Positions 12,640-32,255 of a stretch of DNA of 64,000 nucleotides are shown here, in pieces (positions within the stretch are counted from its first letter, which is position 1; the number at the start of each line of letters is the position of its first letter). The notes below the pieces were generated by a model. That model was not told where the DNA came from. It saw only the letters and a list, made by a program, of their open reading frames with translations, and ran no database searches. Made by a program: the position numbers and the translations under genes. This stretch comes from Oerskovia merdavium (GTDB taxonomy: Bacteria > Actinomycetota > Actinomycetes > Actinomycetales > Cellulomonadaceae). The DNA is taken from the NCBI RefSeq assembly GCF_014836755.1, contig NZ_JACSQF010000008.1:129542-193541 (forward strand), written 5' to 3'.

Positions 12640-12850
12640 CCGACGGCGGAGCACACCCCAGCCCTTCGACGGGCATCGCTACCAAACAGGCCGCGACCGA
12701 CACCCTCGAGCCCGTCGATGACTTCGTGACCACGATCGCCGTGACGCCACGCTGGCCGAACTGAACCGCCGCCTTTTCGACGGCTTCACGGACGACGAGC
12801 TGACCACCGCCGCCCGCCGGCTCGAGGACGTGACGCGTACCCTCCCCTAG
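12640..12850 (+). pseudogene. MarR-family C-terminal remnant next to a broken terminator
   Basis: From about 12746 to the stop at 12848-12850 one frame reads ATLAELNRRLFDGFTDDELT and on, which closely resembles the last helices of MarR regulators. No start or HTH is present, and the preceding segment (ATKQAATD, FVTTIAV) is in a shifted frame, so this is a gene fragment. At about 12629-12653 there is the left arm of a CCCGACGGCGGAG-type terminator whose right arm is missing. Together they suggest a recombination or deletion scar at the left edge of the defence island. Confidence 0.55.
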
Positions 12851-13281
12851 TTCGCCAGCGCAGCCGTCAGTTGGTCGACCTGAAAGCGATTGACGTAGCG
12901 GAAGGACTGCGGTGGCTCGAGTCCCGCATTGGCCCGGATACTGTGAAGGGGCGTGGGAGTTGCGAGCGGGACGGCATCCCTGAGCCGCAGGCCGTATCCA
13001 CGTGACGCATCCTCGTAGTACTGGTCGAACTCGATCTGCGTCACTCCGGCGTCGTCCTTAACTCGTGGCCAAAGCTCTGTCGGGTGCGCCTCGATGATCT
13101 CGTCGAGGACAGCAGTGCCAAGGACAGAACGGGTTGGGCTGCTGGAGTACAGGACAACGAGCGTCCCGGCGTGGGCGTGAATCCGGGTACGGCGGAGCTC
13201 AACCGTCTTGTCGCCTCGAAGGATCGCTTCGGCGAAACGCGGTCGGATGCTCAGCATGACGCCCCGCCACTCAGCCTCCAC
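12847..13281 (-). CDS. ASCH domain protein
   Basis: A 144-residue protein dominated by an ASCH (PUA-like) domain: MLSIRPRFAEAILRGDKTVELRR at the N-terminus, then LVVLYSSSPTRSVLGTAVLDEI. ASCH proteins bind RNA or nucleotides and some are nucleases or effectors; the role here is unknown. The start is GTG 13281 with GGAAGG upstream; ATG 13257 is the alternative. The gene overlaps the end of the GNAT-PIN gene by 11 nt, so translation is probably coupled. The stop region overlaps the end of the MarR remnant on the other strand. Confidence 0.8.
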   Translation of the reverse strand: MEAEWRGVMLSIRPRFAEAILRGDKTVELRRTRIHAHAGTLVVLYSSSPTRSVLGTAVLDEIIEAHPTELWPRVKDDAGVTQIEFDQYYEDASRGYGLRLRDAVPLATPTPLHSIRANAGLEPPQSFRYVNRFQVDQLTAALAN

Positions 13282-15470: not shown

Positions 15471-16208
15471 TCATCGATCTGCTACCTGCTGGTAGACCTG
15501 GTCCTCAGCGTCGCGCATCTCCCTTTCCACGCGTTCGGTCAGGCCAGGGTCGTCGAGACGCACACCGAGTTCGACGTTCGCATACTCAGCGCTCCACGAC
15601 AGGTTGGCGCTGGTGACGACGAGCCAGCGATGGTCGACAGCGAGAAACTTGGCGTGGTTGCGGACGGGTTTGCCACCGAACTTCTTGCTGATGAGAACGG
15701 TCGCCGGCGAGAGCCAATCGGCGATCTCGACAGCCGTCGGGCCGGAGCCCTTGGCAGCGGCGACGCCGTCTAGGTAGACGCGGACGTCTAGGTGCGGTCT
15801 GTGCGCAACTTCGCGAAGCGCCTGCCACATCCCGGAAGACTTCTGGATATTGAAGGTGGAGCAAACGACCGAGGTCCGGGCACGGGCGACCAGATCGACG
15901 AGCCGTGAGGTAAGGGCCCCCGCGCCGGCGACGTGGCCCGGCATCGTCCAGAGCGTTTCGGCTCGGGTCACATGCGACCGCGCTCCCTCGATTCCGGTAA
16001 GGACGGCGGCGAGCGTGTCCCGTTGATGCGAGAGTCCGGCATTCTTCACCAGCGAGAGCGCCTTGTACCGTCGGCCGGATTCGACCATCGCGAAGGCAGT
16101 CGACACCGATGACCCGTCAACCAGTGCCTGGGATACCAGCCGAGCCTCGGTGCCTGTCAGCAGGGCGCCGAGGTCGCGGAAGGCTTGCCGCTCAGCGGAA
16201 GAAGCCAA
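15471..16208 (-). CDS. drmC: DISARM protein DrmC (phospholipase D-like)
   Basis: A 245-residue phospholipase D-superfamily protein with a single HKD motif: His185-x-Lys187-x4-Asp192 in NHAKFLAVDH, followed by TSANLSWSAEYANVELGV. DrmC is a core DISARM member, and its PLD domain is reported as dispensable or accessory in some settings. The start appears to be TTG 16208, inside the end of drmB with a 17-nt overlap and a GGGAGCGCAGGGA stretch upstream. It is the last canonical gene of the operon. Confidence 0.9.
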   Translation of the reverse strand: MASSAERQAFRDLGALLTGTEARLVSQALVDGSSVSTAFAMVESGRRYKALSLVKNAGLSHQRDTLAAVLTGIEGARSHVTRAETLWTMPGHVAGAGALTSRLVDLVARARTSVVCSTFNIQKSSGMWQALREVAHRPHLDVRVYLDGVAAAKGSGPTAVEIADWLSPATVLISKKFGGKPVRNHAKFLAVDHRWLVVTSANLSWSAEYANVELGVRLDDPGLTERVEREMRDAEDQVYQQVADR

Positions 16209-18213
16209 GTCCCTGCGCTCCCGGTAGGTCGACGAGGAATCGGCGGTCTAGGAACCGGTTGGCCTTCTCACAGGAGGTCTCGGACGCCATGGCGCAGGTG
16301 TGGCAGGCAGCGCCGTGGAGAAAGTCCTCGGGATCCTTCGGGGTTCGCTGCGCGCACACCGGGTCGGACGAGCACCGCACTGCACGCTCGAGGGCCCGAT
16401 GCGCGACCCGCCAGAGCTGCTCAGGGTCGGAGAGCTGGACAAGACCACCCAGCGTCCCGTCCGAGTCGGACGCCGTGGTGACGATGAGCAACCCCGCTGA
16501 CGGGCCGCGCCCCTCGCGTCCCTCCCACGCGTAGATGCGTTCGGACAGCGACGCCGCCGAGTAACCGGAGTACATTGCCATCTCGCGCAGCAGCACGTGG
16601 GACAGGGTGTGCAGGAGCCAGTACCGCGGAGGCGCCATGCGAGAGTCCGGGGCGACGTCCTTGGACGTCTCCGAGTACCGGGCGTTGTAGTTGCGCTCGT
16701 GCGACTGGCGGTGCGCCTCCCACAGCGGGGTGTCGTAGATCCGCTTCTCCCAGGCGGCGACGGCGCTCTCGTCGAACTGGAGGTAGACCCCTTCGCCTCG
16801 GTCCTCGGTGGCGATGGCCCACGTCGGACGGCCGGAGCGACTGAGGGGCACGATGCGCGCCGGCATGTCGTTGGCACGCTCCATCTCGTCGATGCGCGTG
16901 AACCCGACGACGGCGTTCACTTTGCGCAGCCGGTCGACCGCGAGGACGCGCGAGACGTGCCGCGCTTTCAGTTCTTCGTGGACGGCCTTCTTCGTCAGCG
17001 CGAGCCCGCTCTTGGCATCACCTTCGTGCTGCGGTCCCAGGGGGTCCTTTTGGAGGTAGTTCCACTCGGGCACGAGGAGGTCGGTCGGGTCCCAGTCCCG
17101 CAGCGCCTCCGTCTGCTCCTCGAGGGTCGGCTCGGGCGCCAGTGCCTGTTCGACGGCGAGCGCGAGCGTCTCGTCAGACCATGCGGCGAGGTCTGACTCC
17201 TCATCCTCGAGGTACTCCCTGAGATCGTCGAGCCGATCGTGGTACTTCTCGACGCGCTTCTTCCCGGCTTCCGCGAGGAGTTGGACACCGAGTGTCTCCT
17301 GCGTGGCGGCTTCAGCTTCGGGCATGACGACGATCGCCTGGGTCGCCGGGAACCACAGGTTCGAGGCGCCCAGCAGCATGAACCTTGTGCCGTTCTTGCA
17401 GCCCCGCTTGTCGAACGCGCCGAGGTGCGGGTGCCGACCGCGGCACCCTGGGAGCTTAGCGCGCCCGGCCTCGCCCTGCGCTTCGTTCATCGGCCGGGTC
17501 GCGCTGCACGCACCGCACCGGATGGACGCCGACGCACCCTTACCGACGGTCCGTTCGTCCATCGTCAGTGGAGCGAACTCGACGCCGGCGGGACAGGAGG
17601 CGCCCTGGTGCACCCACCAGTCGTACGGGAACTCGTCGAGGTGACCGTCAGGGCAAGCGAGAAGGTAGCGGGCAGGCACGGCCTGGCGGGGCACCTTACT
17701 CTTGCCCTGTCCCTTGCGCCCGGGGCAGTTCGGGTGCTCGAAGCGCGCCTGATCAGGGCGGTACGGATTGGTATTGACGTAGGCAAACCGGTCGAGGCGG
17801 CCCAGCAGATCGCAGCCGGTGCATCGGAGCCACTGCGGGAAGACGCGGGCCGGGACGCCGAGGTCGTCCCCTTCCTTGGAGAAGATGCTCTCCTTGGGCG
17901 CCCAGGGGAAGGGACGCAGTTCCTGCACGGTCCACTGACCGGGGAACCGGCGGACGGCGTCGAGCAGTCGCGGGGCGTGCACGGTGGGAATGCTGGAGCG
18001 ACGAGCCCAGATGCGCTCCCAGTCGTCGGTGCCAGCCGGCATGACGGTGAAATGGGGCAGATCCATGACCGAACCGGGACCGTACGTGTACAGCAGCGAC
18101 GACGGCCGCGCGGATCCGACCTTGGCCCGGTTCTTACTGGCCTTCTGCGCGGCGTCGGCGTCGAGGTCGCCGAGCGGGTCGAGCACCTCGGTGGTGGTGA
18201 AGTGTTCAGTCAC
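16192..18213 (-). CDS. drmB: DISARM protein DrmB (DUF1998)
   Basis: A 673-residue core DISARM protein that partners DrmA. The N-terminal half carries several cysteine pairs (CTGCDLLG, CPDGH, CGACS) that could bind zinc. The DUF1998 region is near the C-terminus (YWLLHTLSHVLLREMAMYSG, then GLLIVTTASDSDGTLGG, and C-rich CHTCAMASETSC). The chosen start is GTG 18213 (VTEHFTTTEV), which overlaps the drmA stop by 8 nt and has GGAGGACAGGGG upstream. An upstream in-frame start at 18258 lies fully inside drmA and is less likely. Confidence 0.92.
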   Translation of the reverse strand: MTEHFTTTEVLDPLGDLDADAAQKASKNRAKVGSARPSSLLYTYGPGSVMDLPHFTVMPAGTDDWERIWARRSSIPTVHAPRLLDAVRRFPGQWTVQELRPFPWAPKESIFSKEGDDLGVPARVFPQWLRCTGCDLLGRLDRFAYVNTNPYRPDQARFEHPNCPGRKGQGKSKVPRQAVPARYLLACPDGHLDEFPYDWWVHQGASCPAGVEFAPLTMDERTVGKGASASIRCGACSATRPMNEAQGEAGRAKLPGCRGRHPHLGAFDKRGCKNGTRFMLLGASNLWFPATQAIVVMPEAEAATQETLGVQLLAEAGKKRVEKYHDRLDDLREYLEDEESDLAAWSDETLALAVEQALAPEPTLEEQTEALRDWDPTDLLVPEWNYLQKDPLGPQHEGDAKSGLALTKKAVHEELKARHVSRVLAVDRLRKVNAVVGFTRIDEMERANDMPARIVPLSRSGRPTWAIATEDRGEGVYLQFDESAVAAWEKRIYDTPLWEAHRQSHERNYNARYSETSKDVAPDSRMAPPRYWLLHTLSHVLLREMAMYSGYSAASLSERIYAWEGREGRGPSAGLLIVTTASDSDGTLGGLVQLSDPEQLWRVAHRALERAVRCSSDPVCAQRTPKDPEDFLHGAACHTCAMASETSCEKANRFLDRRFLVDLPGAQGLGFFR

Positions 18214-21200
18214 GGGCGTTCCCCTGTCCTCCCGGAGCGGGCCGCCACGCGGGCGCATCGAGCAATTCGTAGGCCATGAGCTTCTTCTTGTCCGGTGTCA
18301 CCAGGAGGTTGATCTCTGGCTGCACCTCACGCATCGAGTTCGCCACGGTGAACGGCACGCTGTCGTGGCCGTCCGCGGCGCGCGTGTTCTCCGGGGAGCG
18401 CAGCAGCGCGCTCTGCTTGGTCTCGTCGCGGACCTTCTCGTAGACGAGCTCGTGCTGATTCTGCGCGACGAACTTTCGACGGCTGGCCCACTGCCCGAGA
18501 CGGTTGTGGAGTCGGTCCTGGACGATGACGCCCGCGTCCTCGCCGCCGGCCACCTTGGCGCGAGCCACCAGCCGGTCGATGAGCGCCTCGAGGCGCGGCA
18601 AGGCGTCGTCAATGCGCCCCGGAGACTTCTCCGGAGACAGTCCGCTCTCGCGGGCAGCGTCCATCACTCGGGCCGCACTCACGAGCACGCCGTCGAGGGA
18701 CCGCTCGAGCGACGTCAGCGAGTACGGGGTGACGGACAGCGGCTCCACCTGCGAGTAGAAGGTCTCGTGGTAGTACCTGAACTGTTCGAAGTGCGCGAGG
18801 TCGCGGGGCCGGGCCCAGTTCCCGAGCGTGACGACGAGGCCCGGCCGGTCGGCGTCTCGTCCGACGCGGGACGACGCCTGGATGTACTCGGCGGTGTTCT
18901 TCGGCTGCCCGACCATCAGCATCAGGCCGAGCCGGGTGACGTCGACGCCGACCTGGAGCATGGAGGTGGCGAGCACCACGTCGAGGGGGTTGGTGTCTCG
19001 TCGTTCGGTCTTCTCCCCCGCCTTGTACTTGGCGGCTTGGTCGCGCTGCGCCTGCGTGGTGTCGACGTCGGCAGAGAACTGAACGCCCATCTGGTCCAGC
19101 GTCGAGGTGATCTCGGTCGAGGCGACGCGGGACGTGAGCTCGGCGAGATTGAGGCTGCCGTAGCTCGTGCCGAATCGCAGCGGGAAGTACTTGCCAGCGC
19201 GACGCTTGCGGATTGCGGTCTGCACGTCGTCCTGAATGTACCGGGCCATGCCGGCCAGCTCGCGGGTGGCATTGAAGTACCCGACGAGCGTCATGTACGG
19301 GTCGGCGGCGTCGCCAGCCTCGTCCATGAGGAGCTGACCGGCGGAGAGCAGGTTGCTCGCCACAGCGATCTCGGCGGTGGTGAGCCGCACGCCGGTGGTG
19401 CTGACGCCGATGTACCGGCGTCCGGGGTTCTCCGGCGAGACCGGCACCTCTTGCGAGAAGTACGTGTCTTCGACGTTAAGCACCTGCGGGGGGAACATCG
19501 TCACGGCGCGCCCATACAGGCCGCGGATCTGTTCGCCCGCGTTGCGGACGGTCGCGGTGGAGGCGACGACGAGCGGGCGAACGTCACGCCCCTCGGCGTC
19601 ACGCCACGAGGTCAGCACGTCGATGGCCATCTCGAAGGCGCCGACGGCGGTGCCCAGTGCCCCGGTGATGAGGTGCAGCTCGTCCTGGATGATGAGGTCC
19701 GGCGGTCTCAGCCTGCCGACCTTGCGCACTCGCGCCGACGGGTGGTCACCGGACTTGGGGTGCTGACCGCCAAGCTTCACGTCGCAGCCGTCGTAGTCCT
19801 CGTGGACGTACCCGTGACGGTCGCACTTGCGGCTGACGTAGCCGAACAGGGCAGCCGCCTCGCCTTCGCGGGCGAGCCTGGCGAACTTGTCGACGGTCGC
19901 GATGACGAATGCGGGGGTGAGGCGGTAGATCTCCTCGTCGACGGTGAGGACGGGCAGGCCTTCCCCGTCCGCGGAGCCCTCGGCGAAGGGGCAGTCGCCG
20001 AACTCGTCGCCGCAGTACACGTAGATGCGCCGGGTGGTCTTGTCGCCGCGGATCTGCTTGGCACCATCGATGGTGGTGCCGCACCAGGGGCACCGCTGGA
20101 GCTGGAGCACGGTGAGGCCGTACTTGGAGTTGTGCTCGTTGGCCTTCTTGAGCTGTTCCTCGGCCTCTGAGTACCGCTTCGGGGAGACGGCGGTGCCCAC
20201 CCACAGGCCGATGCGGAACGGCGTGGTCCCCCAGGTCTCCGGGTCCTTGCGGCGTTCGACCTCAGCGGCACACACGAGCGCGGTGGCGCGCTGGAACTGC
20301 TGAGCAGTGAGCAGCCGCAGCGTGTAGCGCATGAGGACGGCGATGCCGTCGCTGCCGTCGATCTTGCCGTCCGGGGTCTCGATGACACCCTGGCGACGCC
20401 GGACCGCGAACGTGAAGGCCGCGAGGCCGAGGTACGCCTCAGTCTTGCCACCACCGGTGGGGAAGAATAGCAGCTCGGCGCGAGCGGCTTCCCCGGAGCG
20501 ACGAGTGATGGTGGGGTCGGCGAGTGCCTGGACCTGCATGAGCACGAACGCGAGTTGGAAGGTGCGCCACGAGTGGGCCCTGGGCCCACTCGCGATGACG
20601 GCGTCCCGTGCCTCAGAGAGGTCGAGTTCGGGCTTCTTGGACCGGTTGTCGGCGACTTGCGACTGAATGCGCTGGTCGGCCATGACCCGGTTCATGAATC
20701 GGAAGCAGCGGCGTGCTTCCTCGTTCTCAGGGTGGAGAAGGTAGTCGAGGCCGGCGCGGAGCTGGGTCGCGACCATCTGTGCGTCGCGGACGACATCGAT
20801 GGCCACGTCGCGCAGATGCGCGCGAAGGGTCTCCGCCTCGTCCTGACGCTCCGCCAGCCAGGCGTCGTAGCCGTCGATGATGGGGCTGAGGCCCGCACGG
20901 AGTTCCTCCGTACCGGCGACGGCCAGCTGCTCCATGTCGAGGAGGGCGCCGTCGATCTCCTGGGCTCGGGTCTGCGGGGTGTCGGAGACGGGGAGCCAGC
21001 GGGTGCGGACCTGGGTGGCGCGCCGGGCACCGGGCGCGACGGTCCAGTCGACGGAACAGGTGCGGCCGATGGCGAACTCGAGCCGGTCTCGGTACTGGAG
21101 TTGGAGCAGGGCGATCTCGGGGTGGGAGTCGACCGCTGACTCCTCGACCACGTCGGCCACGGGGAGGAAGACGGCCTCGCCGCCTGCCTCGACGTGGAGC

Positions 21201-21937
21201 TGGGTCTGGTACATCCACGCGTCGGTGGGGATACGGCGGGGGGTCTCCCGGTCGTTGCAGAGTGCGACCTCGACGATGCGCCTCGAGCCGGAGTCCATGA
21301 CGTCGATGCGGAGCAGCACGTCCTGCTCGAGCGGGACGTCGTGGGTCTGACCCGCCTGGAGGGCGCCGACCGCCACCAACTTCGCGTGGTCGTGCGGAGT
21401 GCGAACGTACGTGCGCTTCTCCCGACCGGACGCCGTGACCTCGCCCGTCGACTTCGCGGCGTACGAACCCCAGGAGGCGCGGATGGTCACGCGCTCCTGG
21501 TGAAGGGGAACTTGGAAGCGCAGCCCCATGGACGCGGGGATCATGAGCCCCTTGCGCAGCGGGGCGTCCTCGACGCCGTCGTCATCAGCCGACGCCGGCT
21601 CCTCACCTGCGGTCGAGACCGGGACGCCGCGGTCCTCGCCGACGTCACCAGGATCGATCACCTCGTCGTCGGCGTCATCCGCGTCGGCCGACATGACCGC
21701 ACCCTTGCCGACAAGCTTGGCGGGCGCAATCCGACCGACCAGGTAGAGGCCGTCCGGCTGCGCGTCGAGTTCTTCCTCGTCGCCGTGCGCGGGGCCGAGG
21801 AGTTCCCGGTCGAGGATGTCGGCCAGGTTCTCTCGCACGGTCCACGAGTCCCAGTCGCCTTCAGGGCGGTGATTCAACTCGTACTCACGTCGGGCTGGGG
21901 CCGTCGGCGTGTCAGTAGCCGCCGTCGTGTCACTCAT
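18206..21937 (-). CDS. drmA: DISARM helicase DrmA
   Basis: A 1243-residue helicase of the DISARM core. Walker A reads FPTGGGKTEAYLG (Lys near 499). A DEAD-like box is PDLIIQDELHLITG. A CPWC...CG zinc-ribbon-like insertion lies between them. The C-terminal helicase motifs are VATSMLQVGVDVTRLGLMLM and QASSRVGRD. DrmA with DrmB recognises invading DNA with a 5' overhang in published work on class 1 DISARM. The start is the ATG at 21937 (MSDTTAATD), 20 nt after the drmMI stop with AGCGGAG upstream; an upstream start overlapping drmMI is possible. Confidence 0.93.
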   Translation of the reverse strand: MSDTTAATDTPTAPARREYELNHRPEGDWDSWTVRENLADILDRELLGPAHGDEEELDAQPDGLYLVGRIAPAKLVGKGAVMSADADDADDEVIDPGDVGEDRGVPVSTAGEEPASADDDGVEDAPLRKGLMIPASMGLRFQVPLHQERVTIRASWGSYAAKSTGEVTASGREKRTYVRTPHDHAKLVAVGALQAGQTHDVPLEQDVLLRIDVMDSGSRRIVEVALCNDRETPRRIPTDAWMYQTQLHVEAGGEAVFLPVADVVEESAVDSHPEIALLQLQYRDRLEFAIGRTCSVDWTVAPGARRATQVRTRWLPVSDTPQTRAQEIDGALLDMEQLAVAGTEELRAGLSPIIDGYDAWLAERQDEAETLRAHLRDVAIDVVRDAQMVATQLRAGLDYLLHPENEEARRCFRFMNRVMADQRIQSQVADNRSKKPELDLSEARDAVIASGPRAHSWRTFQLAFVLMQVQALADPTITRRSGEAARAELLFFPTGGGKTEAYLGLAAFTFAVRRRQGVIETPDGKIDGSDGIAVLMRYTLRLLTAQQFQRATALVCAAEVERRKDPETWGTTPFRIGLWVGTAVSPKRYSEAEEQLKKANEHNSKYGLTVLQLQRCPWCGTTIDGAKQIRGDKTTRRIYVYCGDEFGDCPFAEGSADGEGLPVLTVDEEIYRLTPAFVIATVDKFARLAREGEAAALFGYVSRKCDRHGYVHEDYDGCDVKLGGQHPKSGDHPSARVRKVGRLRPPDLIIQDELHLITGALGTAVGAFEMAIDVLTSWRDAEGRDVRPLVVASTATVRNAGEQIRGLYGRAVTMFPPQVLNVEDTYFSQEVPVSPENPGRRYIGVSTTGVRLTTAEIAVASNLLSAGQLLMDEAGDAADPYMTLVGYFNATRELAGMARYIQDDVQTAIRKRRAGKYFPLRFGTSYGSLNLAELTSRVASTEITSTLDQMGVQFSADVDTTQAQRDQAAKYKAGEKTERRDTNPLDVVLATSMLQVGVDVTRLGLMLMVGQPKNTAEYIQASSRVGRDADRPGLVVTLGNWARPRDLAHFEQFRYYHETFYSQVEPLSVTPYSLTSLERSLDGVLVSAARVMDAARESGLSPEKSPGRIDDALPRLEALIDRLVARAKVAGGEDAGVIVQDRLHNRLGQWASRRKFVAQNQHELVYEKVRDETKQSALLRSPENTRAADGHDSVPFTVANSMREVQPEINLLVTPDKKKLMAYELLDAPAWRPAPGGQGNARD

Positions 21938-21956
21938 CGCGTCGTTGCTCCGCTCT

Positions 21957-24900
21957 TCACTTAACCTGCTCCGCCTCGAGGGCAGCACGGCGGTGGTTCT
22001 CCTCGAGCAAGCGGTCGATGATCTCGACGCGAGCCGGGGGGCTGACGGTCCAGCGGGTTATCTGCCGGTAGGTGTGGAACCCGTGGTCGAGTGGGACGTC
22101 GCCCCACCCGTAGGCAGCCATCACAGCCTCGTCGAGCTCGACGTGAATCTTGCGCAGTCGCGCAACGTCAGCGTCGTCAGCGTCTGCGATCTCCGGGTCG
22201 TTGATCCGGTTATAGAGCTTGGTCAGGCCCAGGTCCTGCTCCATCATGATGTAGCGACGCTCGGTGTCGAGAGTCTTGCCAATCTCGGCCAATCGTTCCG
22301 TTGGCTCGGGACGCGGAAATGTCTCGAAGACGTCGGACGGCGTGTAACGAGGATCACTCCGCATGGCAGAGCCGTATCGAATAACCCACGCCTGGTGAGA
22401 ACTACTGGAAAGAACAGCCTGCGTGGAGAACGATGAATCGACGATAATAGTGAGCATATTGCTTAGACACTGACCCGTCGTGACACGCATCGGCATCAGC
22501 GACTTGCTAACGATTGTCACAGCCAGCACTTCGCTCAATCCAGCGATGCGATTCCGCAATTTTGGACGCTTCTCCGCGAACTGCCACCAGTAGTCTCGAT
22601 AGGTCTTCCGATTGTTCCTCATTCGCTCCGGGTAGACTTGTTCTAGAACCCGCTCGAATGGCAGCTTGTATCGACGAGACTCATCCTCGCTTCGATTGCC
22701 GAAATCGATCACCCAGCGCCGCCCAGAAGAGTCCGGTCGCTGGTTCAGGTCCTCCCCGTTAAGGTAGGGCATGAGAACGTCTCTATTTGAAGGGTCAGCG
22801 CCTATCCACTCGTTCGCCTCTTGCGGACTGAGCAAAAACCCTGCACCCAGGACATAGTTGCCAATGAAGGACCCTCCTTGGTTCTCGGCGAGACGAAGCG
22901 GGTTCCCATTTATCCTACCCGCCGGCTCAAGCAGTGAATTAATGGACCGCACCCGACGCCCCCCGATCCAAGCACCCTGGCCACGATCGCCCGCGCGCGT
23001 TCCCCAGACCGCAGCGAATTCTAGATTTGCACTTTCCGCGGGCCACGCGGCGGACTGTATAGCACGCGTGATTGTGAGACCGGACGCCGTCATGTGGTCG
23101 AGTCCTACCTGACGAGTATCACCTTGGGCAATAGTGTTAGTCGCAATTAGCCCAATGTACCCATGCGGCGAAAGAAGTTCTTGCGCGCGCAGGAAGAAGT
23201 ACGCTACAAGATCCGCACTTCCGCGCCGCATACCGGCCAGAACATTCACGAACCAATCGCGAATATCGACGCCCATGGCTCCGGTCAACTTTTGCCCTCC
23301 GAGGAATGGAGGATTTCCAATAACGGCATCGAAACCGCCACGCGCTATCACGTCCGGTACCACGACAGCCCAGTGCAGCGGCTTCCAGCGCTGATAGTCG
23401 GTCTCGACCTCTGGGGTCAGCCCACTCTCGATAATCCCGTCGAGCATCATCGAGTCAGCCGTGCCATGGGTGAACGCGCGGTCGACCGCGATGCGGAGGT
23501 TGTCGTACGCCTCGTCGAGCTGCTTTCCAGGCTTGCCGCCGAGCCGCAGGCCAGCGGCGATCACACCATCGGCCACGGTCGAGAGCTGCTCGACGAGCTT
23601 CTGATAGTCGCGCCACAGCCGGTTCTTGGCGTTCGTGTTGCGCTGAGGATCGTTCTCGTCGACTGGCGTGGCGAGCCGCTTGCGCAGGTCGATCGCACGC
23701 CGGATCACGCCGCGCACATCGAGCATCTCGACGCCGGTCGCCTCCGAGCCTGCGCCGAAGAGCGCGCCCGAGGAGTATGCCTTGGCCCGACCGCTCTCTC
23801 CGGTGAAGGTCTTCGAGCGCTTCGGGTCGATGTGCAGTGCCTCGAGCTGGTCAAGATCGGTGATGCCCAGCAGCGAGTTGCCGTGCAGGATCTTGTCGTC
23901 CACGAAGCTGAACGGCTGGTTGGGGTCGAGTGACACGAGCCAGAGCGAGAGCTTGCACATCTCGACAGCCATGCCGTTGATGTCTGCGCCGTAGAGGCAG
24001 TTCGCCACCACCTGACGTCGGGCGTAGATCTCGAGGTCACGGCCCGACTTGGTGTGGTCACCCTCGCGGTGCAGCGCCTCGATGTACTTCCCAGCGAGGT
24101 ACTCGGCGGCGGCCACGAGGAACGCCCCGGAGCCGCAGGCGATGTCGGCGATCTTGAGATCGAGGATCTCGTAGGAGGCGATCGGCTTCCACTGGTCTCG
24201 GTCCGCCGTCTGATGCGGACCCGGCTGGTACACCAGCGGCTCGAGGGCGTGGAGCACGACCTCCTGCGCCAGGGACTTCGGCGTGTAGTGGGCGCCGGCG
24301 TTCGCGCGCGACGGCGTCTCCGCGACGGCGAGGCCACCGGGCTGGATGACCACCGGCCGGTTCCGCAGGTCGCGGCGGATGATGCCCGCGTACGGGCGAA
24401 GTTGGTCGAGCAGGTCCTCGTCGCGGGTGATCGAGAGCAATGCACGGTCCCGCTCGGCGAGCACCTCGGCGTCAGACTCGGCCAACAGCTTCTTGAGCTG
24501 AGCCGCCGACTTGGCGGTCGCGCCCGACTGCTCGGCTTTGATCCAGTCCCGCAGCGCGGCGACGGCGGCTACGTCGTCGCCGTGGTGCTCCCAGAGGTCG
24601 TCCAGCACGCTCAGCGGCGCCTCGGGCTCTTCACCCTCGGCACCGACGAGCCCGAGCGTGACCTCATCGACCTCGACCGCGGTGTAACCCAGGAGACCCT
24701 CATAGATGTAGCCGATCTGCTCCACGTCGATGTCGCGGAACGAGATGCGGCGGTACTCCCTGCTCACGGTCGCGTACTGCACCGAACGCAGCACCTCGAG
24801 CATCACGCGGTCGCTCACGGTGACGGCGAGGGCACCGCGCTCGTCCAGCGCCGTGAGGAATGGGAAGCGCTTCGGGTCGAAGAGCGACCCGCCGTACGAG

Positions 24901-26036
24901 GGCAGGCGCATGTCCTCGGTGTTCACGCCGGTGTAGAGGGCATGGGAGGTGGCGAGCAGCCGGTGCCAGGTGTGGTGGGTGGCGTCCAGCGCCTCGGAGG
25001 ACTCGTCGCGGTCCCGCTGGTCAAGGGCATCCAGCTCGTCACTGATGCCGTATGCCTCCGTGAAGAGCGGCGTCTGCGGCATCATCGAGCGCTCCTCCGC
25101 GAACAGGAGGAACACCACCCGCATCATGGCAGTCACGGCACCCTCGTACACCTCACCCTTGTTCGCCGGGAGGGGGTCAGGGCGGCCGGCAGCGCGGGCA
25201 TCCAGAGCGGACTCCGAGAAGGCGGTGACCAGCAGTTCCACCGCGCGGCGCACCTGCGTGCCCAGCGCGACGGTGATCTCCTCGGCGGCCGTCACCGACT
25301 CCTGGAAGAGTGCGGGCAGGCGATCCACCTCAGCACCACCGAAGAACCGCTTCGGCGCGATCAGCTCGAAGAAGGCGTCCCGGGTGTCCCGCTCCTCGAT
25401 CCACGTCTGGGCGTCCACCACACCGGACGCCGTCATCACGCCGTCCTGCGCCGAAACCAGCGCCCACCACCGGCCGTCCGTCACGATGCCGATCGACACC
25501 TGCGATGCGCGCAGCAGGGCGTCCATCCGGTCGATCGGCCCAGCAGACCATCCATCGACGCCGGGCTGGCGCAGCGAGGTGACCGGGTCCACGGCCAGCA
25601 CCAGGGCGCCGACCACCCCGTTGCGGACCAGGGCACCCGTCGCCGTCACCGTGACATCGTGGTTCGGCGACTTCGCCGTCGGTCTGCCACCGGGCAGGGT
25701 GGCGGTGTCCCACGTGAGATGGGAGCCCCAGCCGGCGACGTCCTGGAGGACGGTCGAGACCCACTTGTCGCGCGCCCCCCGGTACGCCGCATCAGCGTCG
25801 TCGAGCGCGGCCGGGTCCTGCCCCGCAGCCCCGACCGCCGTCGTCCACTTGTCCCACGCCCGGTCGAAGTCCGGCTTCGCGTCCCGAAGCGCCATCATTG
25901 CCGGGTCGCTCAGCGCGCCGATGCCCTGCGGCCACACGCGCTTCAGCGCCGGGATCGCGACGAACGGGCCGTCCCGGTCCACGAGCTCGAGCCAGGAGCG
26001 GTGGCGCTCGGTCACGTCAGAGGTACGGCGGATCAT
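21957..26036 (-). CDS. drmMI: DISARM class 1 adenine methyltransferase DrmMI
   Basis: A 1359-residue N6-adenine DNA methyltransferase that marks host DNA. Motif I DIACGSGAF is at about 632-640 and catalytic motif NPPF at about 908-911. Upstream helical domains and a C-terminal target-recognition region (about 920-1250) complete it; the architecture resembles BREX PglX and Eco57I-type enzymes. The start ATG 26036 overlaps the drmD stop by 4 nt (ATGA). The C-terminal region, at about 22360-23350, is visibly poorer in GC than the rest of the gene, which suggests exchange of the specificity module. Confidence 0.93.
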   Translation of the reverse strand: MIRRTSDVTERHRSWLELVDRDGPFVAIPALKRVWPQGIGALSDPAMMALRDAKPDFDRAWDKWTTAVGAAGQDPAALDDADAAYRGARDKWVSTVLQDVAGWGSHLTWDTATLPGGRPTAKSPNHDVTVTATGALVRNGVVGALVLAVDPVTSLRQPGVDGWSAGPIDRMDALLRASQVSIGIVTDGRWWALVSAQDGVMTASGVVDAQTWIEERDTRDAFFELIAPKRFFGGAEVDRLPALFQESVTAAEEITVALGTQVRRAVELLVTAFSESALDARAAGRPDPLPANKGEVYEGAVTAMMRVVFLLFAEERSMMPQTPLFTEAYGISDELDALDQRDRDESSEALDATHHTWHRLLATSHALYTGVNTEDMRLPSYGGSLFDPKRFPFLTALDERGALAVTVSDRVMLEVLRSVQYATVSREYRRISFRDIDVEQIGYIYEGLLGYTAVEVDEVTLGLVGAEGEEPEAPLSVLDDLWEHHGDDVAAVAALRDWIKAEQSGATAKSAAQLKKLLAESDAEVLAERDRALLSITRDEDLLDQLRPYAGIIRRDLRNRPVVIQPGGLAVAETPSRANAGAHYTPKSLAQEVVLHALEPLVYQPGPHQTADRDQWKPIASYEILDLKIADIACGSGAFLVAAAEYLAGKYIEALHREGDHTKSGRDLEIYARRQVVANCLYGADINGMAVEMCKLSLWLVSLDPNQPFSFVDDKILHGNSLLGITDLDQLEALHIDPKRSKTFTGESGRAKAYSSGALFGAGSEATGVEMLDVRGVIRRAIDLRKRLATPVDENDPQRNTNAKNRLWRDYQKLVEQLSTVADGVIAAGLRLGGKPGKQLDEAYDNLRIAVDRAFTHGTADSMMLDGIIESGLTPEVETDYQRWKPLHWAVVVPDVIARGGFDAVIGNPPFLGGQKLTGAMGVDIRDWFVNVLAGMRRGSADLVAYFFLRAQELLSPHGYIGLIATNTIAQGDTRQVGLDHMTASGLTITRAIQSAAWPAESANLEFAAVWGTRAGDRGQGAWIGGRRVRSINSLLEPAGRINGNPLRLAENQGGSFIGNYVLGAGFLLSPQEANEWIGADPSNRDVLMPYLNGEDLNQRPDSSGRRWVIDFGNRSEDESRRYKLPFERVLEQVYPERMRNNRKTYRDYWWQFAEKRPKLRNRIAGLSEVLAVTIVSKSLMPMRVTTGQCLSNMLTIIVDSSFSTQAVLSSSSHQAWVIRYGSAMRSDPRYTPSDVFETFPRPEPTERLAEIGKTLDTERRYIMMEQDLGLTKLYNRINDPEIADADDADVARLRKIHVELDEAVMAAYGWGDVPLDHGFHTYRQITRWTVSPPARVEIIDRLLEENHRRAALEAEQVK

Positions 26037-29000
26037 GCGAGGGCTCCGGGCTGGGCGTCGGCGGGGGTCAGGGCGAAGACGACGGCTGCGGCCGAGACGT
26101 ACGGCTGGACGTCGGCGTAGCGGGCACGGATGGAGTCCAGCTCGCGCTTCTCCTCGTCGTCGAGGGTGTCGAGGCGGTCCTCCATGGCGCGCATGTCCCG
26201 CTGGAACTGGCGCTCCTGCTCGGGCAGGAGACCAAACAGCGTGCCGTCGGCGTCCTCCCGCTCCCGGCGCAGGGCCTCGAGGGAGTCACGCAGGTTACGA
26301 CGGAACGCGGCGTAGATCTCCCGCGCCCTGTCGACGTCGGCGTCCTTGCGCTTGACCAGCGACTCAGCGACCGCCTGCTGCTTGCGTTCGGCGGCCTTCC
26401 GCATGGCGTCGTCAAGACGCTCCCGTAGACCTCGCTCCCCCGCGCTCGCGTTCCAGTCGTCCGCGAGCGCCGCCCGGACGGCGTCCGGCGCCAGCTCGAG
26501 GTCGGTGCGGTCGAGGGTCTGTTCCACGAGGTTCTCGGCCTTGGACTCGGCGAGGGCGCGGCCCTTGATGCGGATACCGGCGAGAAAGACCTCTTCGTGG
26601 AGGCGCAGGCCGCCACGACCGACCAGCACGAGACGGGCGACGGCCGCGACGCAGGACTGCTCGAGGTCGGGCACCACCACGGCCGTCGCGCGGTGTACTG
26701 CGGAATCCGCGCTGAACAGGCTGGACCGCAGGATGCGGCTGGCCTTCTGCATGAGGGCGTGCCCGAGGTGCACGTAGACGACCTCGTTGTTCGGCACCTC
26801 CGTCGCGGCGGCGCCGTCGAACGTGATGGGGCGCAGCCTTGCGTCCAGGCGCGTGTTGAGGCCGCGGAGCGCGGGCTGCCAGGCCTGGCCGAGGTTCGGC
26901 ACGGTGTAGACGGCCGCGTCGGTGTCCTGATGGCCTGACACTTCGAGGGTCGGCTGGTCCGTCAATCGCAGCGCGGTATCCACGACGCGCCGGGCGTTGT
27001 CCGGCGTGAGGTGCATCCGCTCCTTGATGTTCTCGTACTGCTCCTCGAGGCGCGTGAGCGAACGGTTGAGCTCGGCCGAGCCCGCCATGACCGACGTGAC
27101 AGCCTCCGCCTCGGTCGTGGGGCGCCGTCGGGGTGTCTTGTCGATGTGGCCGAACTTGTTCTGGATCTCGGCGTCGATCACCGGGTTCACCGAGCCGAGG
27201 TCGCCATGCACGTTGGCGACCTTGCGGGCGATGTACTCCATGAAGTGCATGTCCGCGCCGAACGTCGACGACGTCGACTCCGGCACGAACTGCACCACCT
27301 GCGGGTTCTGCGTCTGCCCGTACCGGTCGATACGCCCGATCCGTTGCTCGAGGCGAGACGGGTTGAACGGCACGTCGAAGTTCACCAGGCGGTGGCAGTG
27401 CGCCTGGAGGTCGATGCCCTCGCCGGCCGCGTCCGTGGCGACGAGCACACGCAGCGGCTCCTTCGACGGGTCCGCGTTGAAGCGGGCGCGCGTAACCTCG
27501 CGGGTCTCGGTGTCCGTCGAACCCTGGATCGTGGCCAGGCGGGACTCGTCGTAGCCGCGCTGGCGCAGGTTCTCCACGATCCAGTCGAGGGTGTCCGCGT
27601 ACTCGGTGAAGATGACGACCCGCTCGTTGGACCACTCCCCACTCGGGCGGCAAATCGCCGTCAGCCAATCGATGAGCGCCTTGAGGCGCGAGTCCGCCTT
27701 GGGGCGATACCCGGTGCCCCACGTGACGAGGCAGTCGATCTCCTCCGTGGTCGCCGAGACCAGGGGGTCGTGGGTGGAGGTGCGCTCCCGGCGCAGCGTC
27801 GTGAACTCCGGGTGCTCGAGAGCGCCCTCCTCCTCGTCGGACGCCTCCGAGCCGAGCACCTCGGCGTAGTAGTCGTCCTCCTCGAGGTCCGAGCCTGCAC
27901 TGAACTGCGCCGCGCGGTAGTTGGCGAGCGTCGTGCCGAAGGCGTACGGGCTCGACAGGAAGCGCTTCTTGAGGAGCATCGCGACGATGTCACCAGAAGC
28001 CTTCATGCCGTTCGCCCGAGCCGACTTTGTCAGCAGGCCGTCGAGCAGGTCGAACATCTGCTGCTCGTCCTGGGCGGGTTCGAACGGGATGGTCGAGATC
28101 TCGCGCGGCTTGAAGTTCTTCGCCACGATGTCGCCCTTGAGGCGGCGGACCGTAACCTCCTTGAGCGCCGTGTCATCCACCGTCGCGCCGCGGCTGAACC
28201 GGCGGTTGTCGATCATCTCGAGCAGCGCCGTGAACGACTCGCTGTGCCCGTTGTGCGGCGTTGCAGAGAGGAAGAGTCGATGCTCGCACAGGCGGGCCAG
28301 GTCACGGACGGCGGTGGTGCGCTGAGAGTCCACCGCGTAGCCGCGGGCCTTGCCGATGGTGGACGGGCTCGACGGCGCCACGTGGTGGGCCTCGTCGACC
28401 ACGAGCACGTCGAAGGCGTACCGTTTGGCGCTGTTGACCGCGCCGACCCCGCTGGTTGCCTCCCGGAAGAGCCGCTGGGCGCGAACGCCAGGCAGCCACG
28501 CCATCGACACGATGACGCGCGGGAACAGGCGGAAGGGGTTCGCGTTGAGGCCGTGCGAGCGCCGCACGCGCGCCATGAGATCGGAGTTCACGATCTCGAA
28601 CTCAAGACCGAACTTCTCCCGCATCTCGTCCTGCCACTTCAGCGCGAGGCTCGGCGGGCACACAATGATGACGCTGCGGGCGCGGTGCCGGAGCAGCAGC
28701 TCCTGGACCACCAGGCCGGCCTCGATCGTCTTACCGAGGCCGACGTCGTCAGCGAGCAGCAGGTTCGTGCGGGGTGCCTGAAGAGCTCGGCGGAGTGGCT
28801 CGAGCTGGTAGGCCTCGACGTTCGCGCCCGAGCGGAAGGGTGCCTGGAACTCCCCCGCGTCGGCCGACGTGATCGCGCCCCATCGCACGGCGTCCACGTA
28901 GGCGGCAAGGGTGTTGGGGTCGTCAAAACCGCCGATCTGCTCCGGCAGGCCGCGATCCGGGGCGACCGAGTGGCCAATCTCCAGTTCCCAGACGACCGCC

Positions 29001-29221
29001 AACTCCTCGCCGCGGCGGTCCTCGTCCAGTGACTGGAGGCTGACCACATGATTGAGGCCGGGACGTCCCTCATCGGCAGGGCTGCGCGGCAGGCCTTGTC
29101 GTCGGATGTCCGTGATGGCCCACGTCGACCCGCGCACAGTAACCACCTGTCCCGGCTCCGGGACCAGCGGTCCTGCCGGCCGAACTTCCGCAGCGGTGGG
29201 GTCGATGGCTGTGCTGGTCAA
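26033..29221 (-). CDS. drmD: DISARM SNF2-like helicase DrmD
   Basis: A 1062-residue SF2/SNF2 ATPase, the marker of class 1 DISARM. Walker A is LADDVGLGKTIEAG (about 157-170), Walker B VVDEAHHVAP, motif III LFLSATPHNG. The C-terminal helicase half has VIFTEYADT, VATDAAGEGIDLQ and RLEQRIGRIDRYGQ. It is followed by a long Arg/Glu-rich helical C-terminus (about 950-1040). The start is TTG 29221 with GAGAGG about 9 nt upstream. It is the first gene of the operon and diverges from an SF1 helicase gene. Confidence 0.93.
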   Translation of the reverse strand: MTSTAIDPTAAEVRPAGPLVPEPGQVVTVRGSTWAITDIRRQGLPRSPADEGRPGLNHVVSLQSLDEDRRGEELAVVWELEIGHSVAPDRGLPEQIGGFDDPNTLAAYVDAVRWGAITSADAGEFQAPFRSGANVEAYQLEPLRRALQAPRTNLLLADDVGLGKTIEAGLVVQELLLRHRARSVIIVCPPSLALKWQDEMREKFGLEFEIVNSDLMARVRRSHGLNANPFRLFPRVIVSMAWLPGVRAQRLFREATSGVGAVNSAKRYAFDVLVVDEAHHVAPSSPSTIGKARGYAVDSQRTTAVRDLARLCEHRLFLSATPHNGHSESFTALLEMIDNRRFSRGATVDDTALKEVTVRRLKGDIVAKNFKPREISTIPFEPAQDEQQMFDLLDGLLTKSARANGMKASGDIVAMLLKKRFLSSPYAFGTTLANYRAAQFSAGSDLEEDDYYAEVLGSEASDEEEGALEHPEFTTLRRERTSTHDPLVSATTEEIDCLVTWGTGYRPKADSRLKALIDWLTAICRPSGEWSNERVVIFTEYADTLDWIVENLRQRGYDESRLATIQGSTDTETREVTRARFNADPSKEPLRVLVATDAAGEGIDLQAHCHRLVNFDVPFNPSRLEQRIGRIDRYGQTQNPQVVQFVPESTSSTFGADMHFMEYIARKVANVHGDLGSVNPVIDAEIQNKFGHIDKTPRRRPTTEAEAVTSVMAGSAELNRSLTRLEEQYENIKERMHLTPDNARRVVDTALRLTDQPTLEVSGHQDTDAAVYTVPNLGQAWQPALRGLNTRLDARLRPITFDGAAATEVPNNEVVYVHLGHALMQKASRILRSSLFSADSAVHRATAVVVPDLEQSCVAAVARLVLVGRGGLRLHEEVFLAGIRIKGRALAESKAENLVEQTLDRTDLELAPDAVRAALADDWNASAGERGLRERLDDAMRKAAERKQQAVAESLVKRKDADVDRAREIYAAFRRNLRDSLEALRREREDADGTLFGLLPEQERQFQRDMRAMEDRLDTLDDEEKRELDSIRARYADVQPYVSAAAVVFALTPADAQPGALA

Positions 29222-29389
29222 GCTCGCAACCTCTCAATTGTGGACAAGTCCATCCGGAATGAGACTGTGGACGATGGTAGGCGCACCCACTGACAGGGTT
29301 GATCACTCACGTGCCCTCCGGAAGGATTTCACCCGGTACAGGTCGACGCACAATCGAGACCTCACGTGCGAGTCGCTATCCTCGCGGAC
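29222..29389. promoter_or_regulatory. divergent promoter region of DISARM and SF1 helicase
   Basis: This 168-bp interval separates drmD (minus) from the SF1 helicase (plus). TATCCT at 29377-29382 lies 7 nt before the ATG at 29390, fitting a leaderless start for the helicase. The heptamer TGTGGAC occurs twice about 30 bp apart (near 29239 and 29268) and could be a regulator site. I cannot place the drmD -10 box with confidence. Confidence 0.45.
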
Positions 29390-31615
29390 ATGCCGCAGGT
29401 CTCGATCGGTCCCGACAAGTCAGGTGGAGTCGACGGAAGCGTCGCCGGCGCCGTCCTGACATTCCTGCAGAAGCTCGGACGAGACGACACCTCACCTGGC
29501 CTGCACATCGAGCCGGTAGTCGGCGGCGCTGATCACCGCTTGTACACCGGCCGGGTCACCAAGTTCTGGCGGGCCCTACTCGCCAAGGTCGGCGACGGCC
29601 CCAGCGCCACCTATGTCTACTTCGGCACGTTTCAGCACGACGAGGCCTACGAGAAGGCTAAGCGGCTCAAACTCACCGTCAACCCCCAGGCCAACGTGCT
29701 CGAGCTCGTCGAAGCTGCTGCGCCGCCGACGATCCTCGAGAACGTCCCACGGTTCACACAGCCCGAATACGTCGCTCCGCCTCCGTTCCCGACACCTACC
29801 CTGCCCGAGCCTGTACTACGAGCACGGGGGTACTCCGTCCACGATCTCCTCGAGCTCGGCATCGACGACACCCTCGCCTCGGACGCCATCCTGCAGACCG
29901 ACGAGCTCGAGCTCGTCGCTCTCACCGACGACGCGCCCGCTCGCTGGCAGCAGAACGTCCTCCTCGAGCTCGCCGACGGCGTACCGCTCCACGAGATCAA
30001 GGCCCGCTACGGCCTCGAGAAGGTGCAGGGCGATCCTGATTCCGACTCCGTCGTGCTCGCCGCGCTGGATCGACCCGCGTCCCGGATGGACTTTGCCCTC
30101 GTCACCGACGATGCGGAACTGCGCGCCGCACTCGAAGACCCCGACTTTGGTCGCTGGCGCACCTTCCTCCACCCTGAGCAGCGGGCCTATGCCTACGGGG
30201 AGCGTAGCGGCTCGTTCCGCCTCTCCGGTGGCGCCGGAACCGGCAAGACGGTCGTCCTGCTGCACCGCGCCCGACACCTCCAGCGCGAGAACCCACAAGC
30301 ACGGATCGTTCTCACCACGTACAACAAGACGCTTGCCAGCTCGCTGAGGGACAGTCTGCTGTTCCTCGATCCACAGACCCACCTCGCCAAATACCCCGGC
30401 GATGTCGGCATCTTCGTCGGCACAGTCGACGCCATCGCTTGGCGGCTCGTCACGCAGGGCGCCGCCCACGGCCTGCCCATCACCGACGCGGCCGGCCTCG
30501 TCCTCGGCACCGCCAGGAGTACCGTCGTCCAGGCGACCACCGGTGACGCGTGGAGACGTGCGCTCTCCCATGCAGGCCACGAGCTGCCGGAGTCCCTTCG
30601 GACGCCGGGCTTCTTCGCCGCCGAGTACGGCACCGTCGTCGTCCCCCACCGCATCACCACCCGCGACGAGTACCTCGCCGCCCCGCGAGCGGGACGGCGG
30701 GTCCCCCTCGACCGCGAGCGCCGCAGCCTGGTGTGGGATGTCATCGACGCCTACCGCGAGGCCGGCATCCAGTCCCGCACCACGGACTACGACGAGAAGT
30801 CGATGATCGCCGCCATCGCTCTCGATCAGGCCGCACCGACCATCGGTCGGCCCGTCGACCACGTCCTCGTCGACGAGGCGCAGGACCTGTCACCGTCGCG
30901 TCTCATCCTGCTGCGGGCCCTCGTTGCCGACGGGCCAGGCGACCTCCTCCTCGCCGAGGATGCTCAGCAGCGCATTTACGCCCCCCTCGTGGTCCTCAGC
31001 AGGTACGGAATCCTGATCCGCGGACGTTCCCGGCGTCTCACGCTCAACTACCGCACCACCGCCCAGACCCTCCGCTTTGCGAGCAGCATCCTCGCCGGTG
31101 AAGAGCTCATCGACTTCGACGGCGAGCCGACGCAGGACGACGGTGCGCGATCCGCCCGGGTTGGCCTGGCACCGCGCACCGAAGGAGCGTCGTCGCTGGA
31201 CGGCGCCTACGCGACGGCGGCGCTGACTCTCCTGAGTTGGATCAACGACGGCGCGACGCCCGAATCTCTCGCCGTTCTCGTGCGTGGAGGCAACGAAGGC
31301 ACCTACCTGCTCCCCGAGCTGGCCGATCGCGGAGTGACCGCCACCTATATCGGACCGCGCGACACGCCCTCCAAGGGGGCGGTGTCCGTCATGACAATGC
31401 ACCGCTCCAAGGGCATGGAGTTCCGCCACGTCTTGCTCTTCGGTGTGACGGCCGAGGCGCTGCCCGCTCACGTGGACGATCTGCCCGAACCCGAACGGAA
31501 CGACGCCGTGCAGCGGGAGCGGTCACTGCTCTACGTCGCGACGACTCGGGCTCGCGACGAGCTCGTCGTCCTGTGGGACGGCGAGCCGAGCGAACTGCTC
31601 CCGCTCGCCGTCTGA
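29390..31615 (+). CDS. SF1 (UvrD-like) helicase with N-terminal accessory domain
   Basis: A 741-residue UvrD/Rep-type helicase. Walker A is GGAGTGKT (280-287), motif II VDEAQDL, motif IV LNYRTT, motif V MTMHRSKGMEFRHV, motif VI LYVATTRARDELVVLW. The first ~110 residues (GLHIEPV, RVTKFWRALL, YVYFGTFQHDEAYEKA, TVNPQANVLEL) resemble the N-terminal domain of a helicase family in which I recall a RelE/ParE-like fold; this is inference. The start is ATG 29390 with TATCCT 7 nt upstream; GTG 29366 is an in-frame alternative. Its divergent placement beside DISARM suggests a defence or repair role. Confidence 0.85.
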   Translation: MPQVSIGPDKSGGVDGSVAGAVLTFLQKLGRDDTSPGLHIEPVVGGADHRLYTGRVTKFWRALLAKVGDGPSATYVYFGTFQHDEAYEKAKRLKLTVNPQANVLELVEAAAPPTILENVPRFTQPEYVAPPPFPTPTLPEPVLRARGYSVHDLLELGIDDTLASDAILQTDELELVALTDDAPARWQQNVLLELADGVPLHEIKARYGLEKVQGDPDSDSVVLAALDRPASRMDFALVTDDAELRAALEDPDFGRWRTFLHPEQRAYAYGERSGSFRLSGGAGTGKTVVLLHRARHLQRENPQARIVLTTYNKTLASSLRDSLLFLDPQTHLAKYPGDVGIFVGTVDAIAWRLVTQGAAHGLPITDAAGLVLGTARSTVVQATTGDAWRRALSHAGHELPESLRTPGFFAAEYGTVVVPHRITTRDEYLAAPRAGRRVPLDRERRSLVWDVIDAYREAGIQSRTTDYDEKSMIAAIALDQAAPTIGRPVDHVLVDEAQDLSPSRLILLRALVADGPGDLLLAEDAQQRIYAPLVVLSRYGILIRGRSRRLTLNYRTTAQTLRFASSILAGEELIDFDGEPTQDDGARSARVGLAPRTEGASSLDGAYATAALTLLSWINDGATPESLAVLVRGGNEGTYLLPELADRGVTATYIGPRDTPSKGAVSVMTMHRSKGMEFRHVLLFGVTAEALPAHVDDLPEPERNDAVQRERSLLYVATTRARDELVVLWDGEPSELLPLAV

Positions 31616-32255
31616 CACCACTCGTTGCCATCCGGAGGGCTGATGTCGGATGCCGACGTTCCAGACCTGCTCGGGTTGGCAGACATGCATCTCCACTTGG
31701 CCATCTGCTACTCGATCACCCGCTTCCCCTGCTCGTTGTCGCTCTGAACCTTGATGGTGAGACTGATAAACCAGCGTCAACGCGTCAGGCGAGCACCACG
31801 AGAACGGCGAGCATGATCTTGGCACCTTCCGCGGCCACGGACGGGAGCACTCCCTTGGCTGGCCCCATGCACGAACTGGTCGGCACACGACCGAAGACGA
31901 CCTCCGACGTGTGCCCGCAACAAGAGTGATTCCGCCGCTCACAACGCCAGCCAGCTAGACCTTTCGCTCCTCGACGCCGCTCGCGAGCGCTCGCCAGCGC
32001 TGGCAGAAGCCCTCCGGACAGTAGAGCTACAAGTGATCCATGCTTTGCTCCCGCGTCCACGAGCTGGCTCATGAGTCCATCAGCGCTTCCTCCGGTGACT
32101 GAGGCTCCCGGTGGTGGTCTCCGAACGCCCTGTACATCGCCATCGGCGTCAAGACCGCTCGCGCAATGGCGCACCCCGTCGGGTCTCGACTTGCTGGAGG
32201 AAATCCTTTACAGTTGGAGCACTGGTGTATAGGTTTCCCTACGGAGGTGGTCGTC
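31616..32255. other. gene-poor interval before abiE
   Basis: About 640 bp between the SF1 helicase and abiEi. A 34-codon frame starts at ATG 31643 with GGAGG just upstream, but nothing in it is recognisable. Its composition is mixed and open frames on both strands look like GC-driven shadows or decayed genes. The end carries the abiE promoter region. Confidence 0.4.
32205..32231 (+). promoter_or_regulatory. candidate abiE promoter
   Basis: TTTACA (32205-32210) and TATAGG (32226-32231) are separated by 15 bp, a little short for a sigma-70 promoter. They lie about 25 bp before the abiEi start, and AbiEi proteins normally repress their own promoter. Confidence 0.4.

Follow-up and report, generated by a model that had tools for sequence, protein, structure and literature searches.

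DISARM separates self from non-self via methylation, according to current models, and its class 1 form is characterized by drmD and drmMI in a set gene order with the core genes drmA, drmB and drmC. The definition followed here is drawn in part from PMC12458937. Class 1-type DISARM is represented among solved structures by the DrmA and DrmB proteins of Serratia sp. SCBI (7s9v, 7s9w). The operon described here lies in a stretch of 64,000 nucleotides from Oerskovia merdavium (contig NZ_JACSQF010000008.1, positions 129,542 to 193,541), called the window hereafter, and it adds an intact actinobacterial class 1 DISARM inside a defence island. From its comparison with related loci, it seems quite likely that class 1 DISARM is partly phase-variable in Actinomycetota, a recombinase encoded in the operon flipping the C-terminus of drmMI between two recognition domains, and that the window holds a fixed member. 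The account as a whole, namely a working class 1 DISARM that is fixed in the window and a cassette-driven specificity switch in related loci, is regarded as very likely.

The DISARM operon of the window

The five genes follow the order drmD-drmMI-drmA-drmB-drmC, which is identical in the relatives, and all are read from the minus strand:

26033..29221, minus strand: drmD, SNF2-family helicase, 1062 aa, TTG start (PADLOC PDLC02621, 1261 bits; NCBIfam NF038317, 1215 bits, cut-off 610)
21957..26036, minus strand: drmMI, MmeI/PglX-like adenine methyltransferase, 1359 aa, ATG start (PADLOC PDLC02643, 1635 bits)
21938..21956, minus strand: gap of 19 nt from the drmMI stop to the drmA ATG (read from the sequence)
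18206..21988, minus strand: drmA, YprA-type SF2 helicase (PADLOC, 988 bits; NCBIfam NF038325, DrmAS, 1355 bits, cut-off 950)
16192..18258, minus strand: drmB, DUF1998/MZB protein (PADLOC, 246 bits; NCBIfam NF038324, DrmB_fam, 665 bits, cut-off 240)
15471..16208, minus strand: drmC, single-HKD phospholipase D-like protein, 245 aa, TTG start (PADLOC, 326 bits; NCBIfam NF038319, DrmC_I, 149.8 bits, cut-off 133; Pfam PLDc_2)

The initial annotation had seen in this region five full-length class 1 DISARM genes with intact catalytic motifs, and had named a search with DISARM profiles as a check. All five reading frames between 15471 and 29221 are complete, and the PADLOC and NCBIfam models place the genes in DISARM families. 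DrmMI, for which NCBIfam returned weak PglX and MAD2 matches only, far under the cut-off, is matched by Eco57I, N6_Mtase, MmeI_Mtase and MmeI_TRD in Pfam and by the sequence of MmeI (5hr4), its target recognition domain covering residues 1064-1244. Its assignment as a putative N6-adenine enzyme rests on the Eco57I, N6_Mtase and MmeI matches together with the motif NPPF. The translations contain DDVGLGKT, DEAH and QRIGRIDR in DrmD, IADIACGSGAFL and NPPF in DrmMI, FPTGGGKT and SSRVGRD in DrmA and one HxKx4D (HAKFLAVD) in DrmC, which we take to be the helicase, methyltransferase and nuclease motifs, all of them intact as claimed. At columns that are invariant among the other relatives (rows under a set length or with a stop being removed), the window departs in 4 of 756 cases: 1/210 in DrmD (57 others), 0/156 in DrmMI (50), 2/261 in DrmA (51), 1/103 in DrmB (52) and 0/26 in DrmC (35). 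None of the five genes looks damaged. The assignment to class 1 follows from the presence of both drmD and drmMI beside the core drmA, drmB and drmC, and the locus is, as judged from its sequence, a complete class 1 DISARM that is probably working.

The overlaps of 4, 8 and 17 nt reported earlier were all recovered. The genes drmD and drmMI share four nucleotides (ATGA), drmA and drmB share eight, GTGACTGA, when drmB starts at the GTG at 18213, and drmB and drmC share 17. With starts picked by a script, the -8 junction recurs in L003, L004 and L014 and the -17 junction in L003, L004, L005, L014 and L049. The likely start of drmB is this GTG at 18213, giving 673 aa (688 aa from 18258), and that of drmA is likelier the ATG at 21937 (1243 aa) than the GTG at 21988 (1260 aa). 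With the latter, drmMI and drmA would overlap by 32 nt. The tight coupling proposed for the operon agrees with the three overlapping junctions but does not extend to drmMI/drmA, where the initial annotation was silent and where a gap of 19 nt is found.

DrmA and DrmB of the window are homologous to those of Serratia (7s9v), with E values of 5.5e-224 and 8.9e-120, respectively. In PMC9142583, Val1296 of Serratia DrmA is proposed as a methylation sensor; it aligns with V1222 of the window protein. Opposite the four zinc cysteines published for DrmB stand C629, C635, C652 and C655, and an acidic segment at about residues 91-145 occupies the position of trigger loop 176-232 in the alignment. The Serratia operon, as described in the same source, additionally has a cytosine methyltransferase, which is absent from the operon of the window. 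MmeI, a type IIL restriction-modification enzyme, has a methyltransferase and a target recognition domain related to those of DrmMI, so that specificity positions can be aligned, but it is a stand-alone nuclease-methyltransferase, unlike DrmMI. In the window protein L1195, R1226, D1228 and R1230 stand at the places of MmeI 774, 806, 808 and 810. Rules measured by others for MmeI-type enzymes read E-R as C and K-D as G at position 6, and by analogy the predicted site of the window DrmMI should be of the form NNNG(mA)G.

Inverted drmMI cassettes in related loci

A search with DrmMI yielded 59 loci, and L061, a short distant fragment, was dropped. Over this search and the two further samples described below, thirteen class 1 loci carry a recombinase gene beside drmA together with a second, inverted DrmMI C-terminus, an arrangement called a cassette below. 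The recombinase is of serine type in 11 and of tyrosine type in two; nine cassettes are whole or nearly so, and four are cut by contig ends. In five loci 2.1-2.7 kb lie between drmMI and drmA, and this interval carries the second C-terminus, oppositely oriented, along with a recombinase gene, which is of serine type in L004, L016 and L060 and of tyrosine type in L015 and L021; all five have inverted repeats. L017, L022 and L024 break off within drmMI at a repeat with which another contig of the respective genome begins or ends (99, 189 and 127 nt shared, respectively, 99-100% identical), directly followed by a serine recombinase and drmA.

Two further samples were searched. Among 394 genomes of the class, a DrmMI C-terminal match was found in 31, with an inverted second copy in G360 and G332 and, in G051, two contigs that stop inside the second copy. 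Within 1.5 kb of 29 loci of this sample there was drmA in 12, a recombinase in three and neither in 14. Among 200 genomes of the family, nine had a DrmMI match, the window included; G468 and G512 provided new cassettes, and G553 and G521 proved by their coordinates to be the genomes of L004 and L022. The silent copy matched Pfam MmeI_TRD in both of the two cases tested.

Longer insertions between drmMI and drmA were also observed. In a wider stretch of G383 (L139) the gap before drmA exceeds 4 kb, and this insertion (9301-13636) has no match to either recombinase. Another of more than 4 kb, from 14090 onward in L054, holds a helicase-like open reading frame of 1144 aa, and neither recombinase type was matched in that genome at the thresholds used.

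For the recombinases, 50 of the 58 DISARM genomes were searched. The serine recombinase exceeded 670 bits in six, the next match having 148 bits; these six are precisely the genomes in which a serine cassette is visible or drmMI is broken at a contig end. Among the 394 class genomes, with up to four candidates scored per genome, it exceeded 700 bits in three (next, 300 bits), the same three that had been found independently via the DrmMI C-terminus. The tyrosine recombinase was found in 2/50 DISARM genomes, L015 and L021. A search of 72,556 plasmid records with a threshold of E 1e-60 gave no recombinase match.

A 35-nt element was derived from both arms of L004, L016, L060 and G360. It was then found in both arms of G468, with 2 mismatches, and both contigs of G051 end inside the shared site, each with its first part. 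None of 50 cassette-free loci comes closer to it than 8 mismatches. The element holds a GTGGAT-8-ATCCAC dyad, and only 2 of 200 shuffled versions equal or surpass the folding of its 20-base core.

Evidence for a proposed specificity switch

The repeats are exact over 467 bp in L060, 404 in G360, 334 in L021, 221 in L015, 111 in L016, 89 in L004 and 31 in G332. A natural inversion is observed between the Streptomyces loci L015 and L021, which are colinear at about 92% except for 13034-14921; this 1.89-kb segment aligns over its full length on the opposite strand. In the same way, the active copy of L015 matches the silent copy of L021 over 923 nt at 89%, and the active copy of L021 over the 400-nt arm only. 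Beyond the repeats (residues 1191-1355), active and silent copies are about 38-62% alike in L004, L015, L021, L060, G360 and G468, and 55-77% in L016. The exchanged part includes the residues aligned with MmeI 774, 806, 808 and 810, and the four-letter specificity codes differ in 9/9 active/silent pairs, four of which, L016 and L060 included, oppose E-R to R-D. Such a difference would change the last base of the site, at position 6, R-D being our own extension of the MmeI-type rules. The best reading of these sequences would be a recombinase-driven switching of the DISARM methylation target in the relatives, and we infer that it is the cassette recombinase that flips the segment and that the methylated motif changes with it.

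Several observations weigh against this reading. The sole inversion observed concerns one pair with the tyrosine type, and for the serine type no pair in opposite orientation was found. The codes also differ in 901 of 990 control pairs, each made up of two cassette-free loci; the difference within cassettes is thus a sign that flipping would alter the code but not a sign of selection for difference. The silent copy of G332 is truncated to about 180 residues and is without the 35-nt site; in G512 the active C-terminus is broken, the silent copy being open, and no site lies within 5 mismatches. These two cassettes look decayed and no longer switchable. In addition, relatives (64-67%) of the serine recombinase are encoded on four viral contigs (L187, L188, L189 and L190), whose stretches of 4-11 kb show no DISARM genes; the recombinase is therefore not restricted to DISARM and probably has its origin in a mobile element. 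Finally, the window itself is without a cassette.

Should the inverted copies be decaying duplications or assembly errors, there would be no working switch at all, and the two decayed-looking cassettes out of 13 and the draft state of several assemblies are in keeping with this. It is nevertheless very improbable, as cassettes lie inside very long contigs (G360 7.4 Mb, G468 4.25 Mb, L015 6.6 Mb), repeats are exact over as much as 467 bp and then give way to divergent copies, the L015/L021 inversion is full-length, and the same place is occupied by two unrelated types of recombinase.

The window among cassette and cassette-free loci

In trees built from DrmD the window falls into one clade with L017, L022 and L024 (SH-aLRT 100), and in a careful tree of 24 rows this clade has bootstrap and SH-aLRT values of 100/100, the order within its four rows being unresolved. 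All three of these nearest relatives carry the recombinase. Compared with the invertible form, the window has no inverted second DrmMI C-terminus and no recombinase in the 19 nt between drmMI and drmA. Its genome contains one copy of the DrmMI C-terminus and gave no match to the serine (E 1e-15) or tyrosine (E 1e-5) recombinase; an inverted repeat or a relic cassette was not found in the window, and the best match to the 35-nt site in its drmMI has more than 12 mismatches of 35.

In the 43-row clade around the window, a 4-nt start/stop overlap joins drmMI and drmA in 27 of 28 cassette-free loci, the exception being L028 and three further loci with no drmA on the contig being uncounted. Among four cassette-free loci obtained later, three have the overlap in frame and G581 is without it; one of the four, G635, has a DrmD at zero distance from that of L014. 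Besides its uncoupled junction, the window has a short DrmMI tail in which the acid run usual in cassette-free members of the clade is missing. A hidden form of the conserved overlap was looked for in the window and rejected: a GTGA is present, out of frame with drmA, and it is uninformative, such a start arising wherever TGA is preceded by A, G or T.

The unusual junction could be explained by the loss of a cassette, and also by plain mutation. On balance, we lean slightly towards a descent of the window from a switching ancestor that lost its cassette. That the window is a fixed form which never had one, an ordinary mutation having shortened its drmMI tail, falls somewhat short of an even chance. 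It would fit with the unresolved branching order, with the missing 35-nt site and with the cassette-free and normally coupled G481, which sits just outside the clade, but it has to account for the recombinase in each of the three nearest relatives and for an uncoupled drmA start and a short, non-acidic DrmMI tail that resemble those of cassette loci.

Proposed mechanism and significance

In the proposed mechanism, DrmMI would methylate adenine within a short asymmetric site of host DNA. DrmA and DrmB would form a helicase complex kept shut by the trigger loop, which may load on DNA that is unmethylated and has a single-stranded 5' end, and then translocate. DrmD, as an SNF2 helicase, and DrmC, as a PLD nuclease, would in some way assist, and the operon as a whole may serve in defence. 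The target recognition domain of the window DrmMI would be fixed, with one copy and no recombinase found. In related loci, a crossover between the inverted repeats of drmMI would replace the C-terminal part, along with its specificity residues, by that of the other copy, and the protected sequence would switch with it.

If this is true, a switch of the recognition domain would give a single clone a different self/non-self code, in the manner of invertible hsdS in type I restriction-modification, and one population could carry two such codes. It also raises the question of how a cell survives when its DNA bears the old mark while the enzyme reads the new one. The strains with cassettes, for instance Streptomyces tuirus PHM034 and Cellulosimicrobium cellulans PW, together with the predicted motifs and the predicted crossover site, offer a test bed for asking if DrmAB reads a specific methylation or just DNA ends.

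Genomic surroundings of the operon

The operon lies within an island of about 12.6-38.4 kb, the third-position GC of which is below that of the flanks. In four of six congeners, both flanking genes are found in the stretch with 1.25-2.7 kb between them, and the island is missing there. A dip of GC over the DrmMI recognition domain was considered as a sign of recent transfer and rejected because GC declines over this part as well in the eight full-length relatives used for comparison.

It is quite unlikely that the operon is complete on paper yet silent or degenerate, as an inert cluster in a variable island. The absence of the island from the same place in these four congeners, the drmMI/drmA junction without its usual 4-nt overlap and a neighbouring AbiEii gene interrupted by an in-frame stop would all suit such a state, whereas the five open genes, their motifs and the 4/756 departures from invariant columns speak against it.

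Three genes adjoin the operon:

12847-13281, minus strand: ASCH protein, one of a pair just downstream of drmC (PADLOC candidate pair PDC-M11B/A); a neighbour, not a DISARM gene
13271-15325, minus strand: GNAT-PIN protein, the other member of the pair just downstream of drmC (same PADLOC candidate pair, PDC-M11B/A); a neighbour, not a DISARM gene
29366..31615, plus strand: divergent GajB-like UvrD helicase, candidate accessory gene (PADLOC GajB and NERD+UvrD; Pfam UvrD)

The first 110 residues of the UvrD protein read as a RelE-type toxin, comparable to ArmD of ARMADA type II. No Pfam match was obtained for this piece and no library gave it a name; the AlphaFold model (pLDDT 46, pTM 0.32) was too poor to support a RelE fold, which was not retained. 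It is doubtful that the window DISARM makes use of this RelE-like/UvrD gene and of the ASCH/GNAT-PIN pair. Relatives of the UvrD gene adjoin DISARM in L024, L030, G481 and G383, a UvrD fragment does so in L022, at the edge of the examined stretch, and in published ARMADA type II systems the last gene nearly always encodes a GajB-like helicase with a fused RelE-like domain; the ASCH/GNAT-PIN pair adjoins DISARM in L042 and L045 too. On the other hand, the UvrD match is present in 4/59 loci, with the helicase part only in two of them, the pair in 2/59, and the orientation varies among flanks that span a few kb and are in some cases cut.

Elsewhere in the island were found an AbiEi/AbiEii pair (32166-33733) with one in-frame stop breaking the AbiEii frame, a fragment of a DDE transposase (34749-35129) and a PtuA-like ATPase (PADLOC PDC-M01A, 36288-37811) in the lowest-GC stretch of the window (0.55-0.56). 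On another contig, the genome carries a second DrmA/DrmB pair in a different gene setting (L095 683-11934; C3 from 86000), with a 1577-aa TmtA-like/helicase and a 511-aa NERD/UvrD-like open reading frame upstream and a cytosine methyltransferase open reading frame downstream. A DrmA related to this second pair is also present in G005.

Comparison with known systems

ARMADA type II shares with class 1 DISARM a BrxHII-like helicase, a PglX-like methyltransferase and a YprA helicase, and its fourth gene resembles the divergent UvrD gene of the window. Nevertheless, YprA is unsplit from OB-CON-DUF1998 in ARMADA type II, whereas DISARM, the window included, has a separate drmB, which sets the window apart from ARMADA.

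No invertible DISARM specificity was found in titles and the beginnings of abstracts in the literature, and the 2018 DISARM or the 2015 BREX papers may mention one. In phase-variable type I restriction-modification with invertible hsdS, inversion of target recognition domains is reported to change methylation, which is like the switch proposed for DrmMI. However, the specificity subunit is a separate protein in type I systems, while the inverted part belongs to the methyltransferase itself in the DISARM cassettes. The nearest parallel found to these cassettes is the BREX system of Lactobacillus rhamnosus (PMC7513527), in which a full and a partial copy of pglX, encoding an MmeI-like methyltransferase, are separated by an integrase. 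The cassettes of the relatives resemble this arrangement and differ from it in that they belong to DISARM, are placed between drmMI and drmA and carry a serine recombinase in 11/13 cases.

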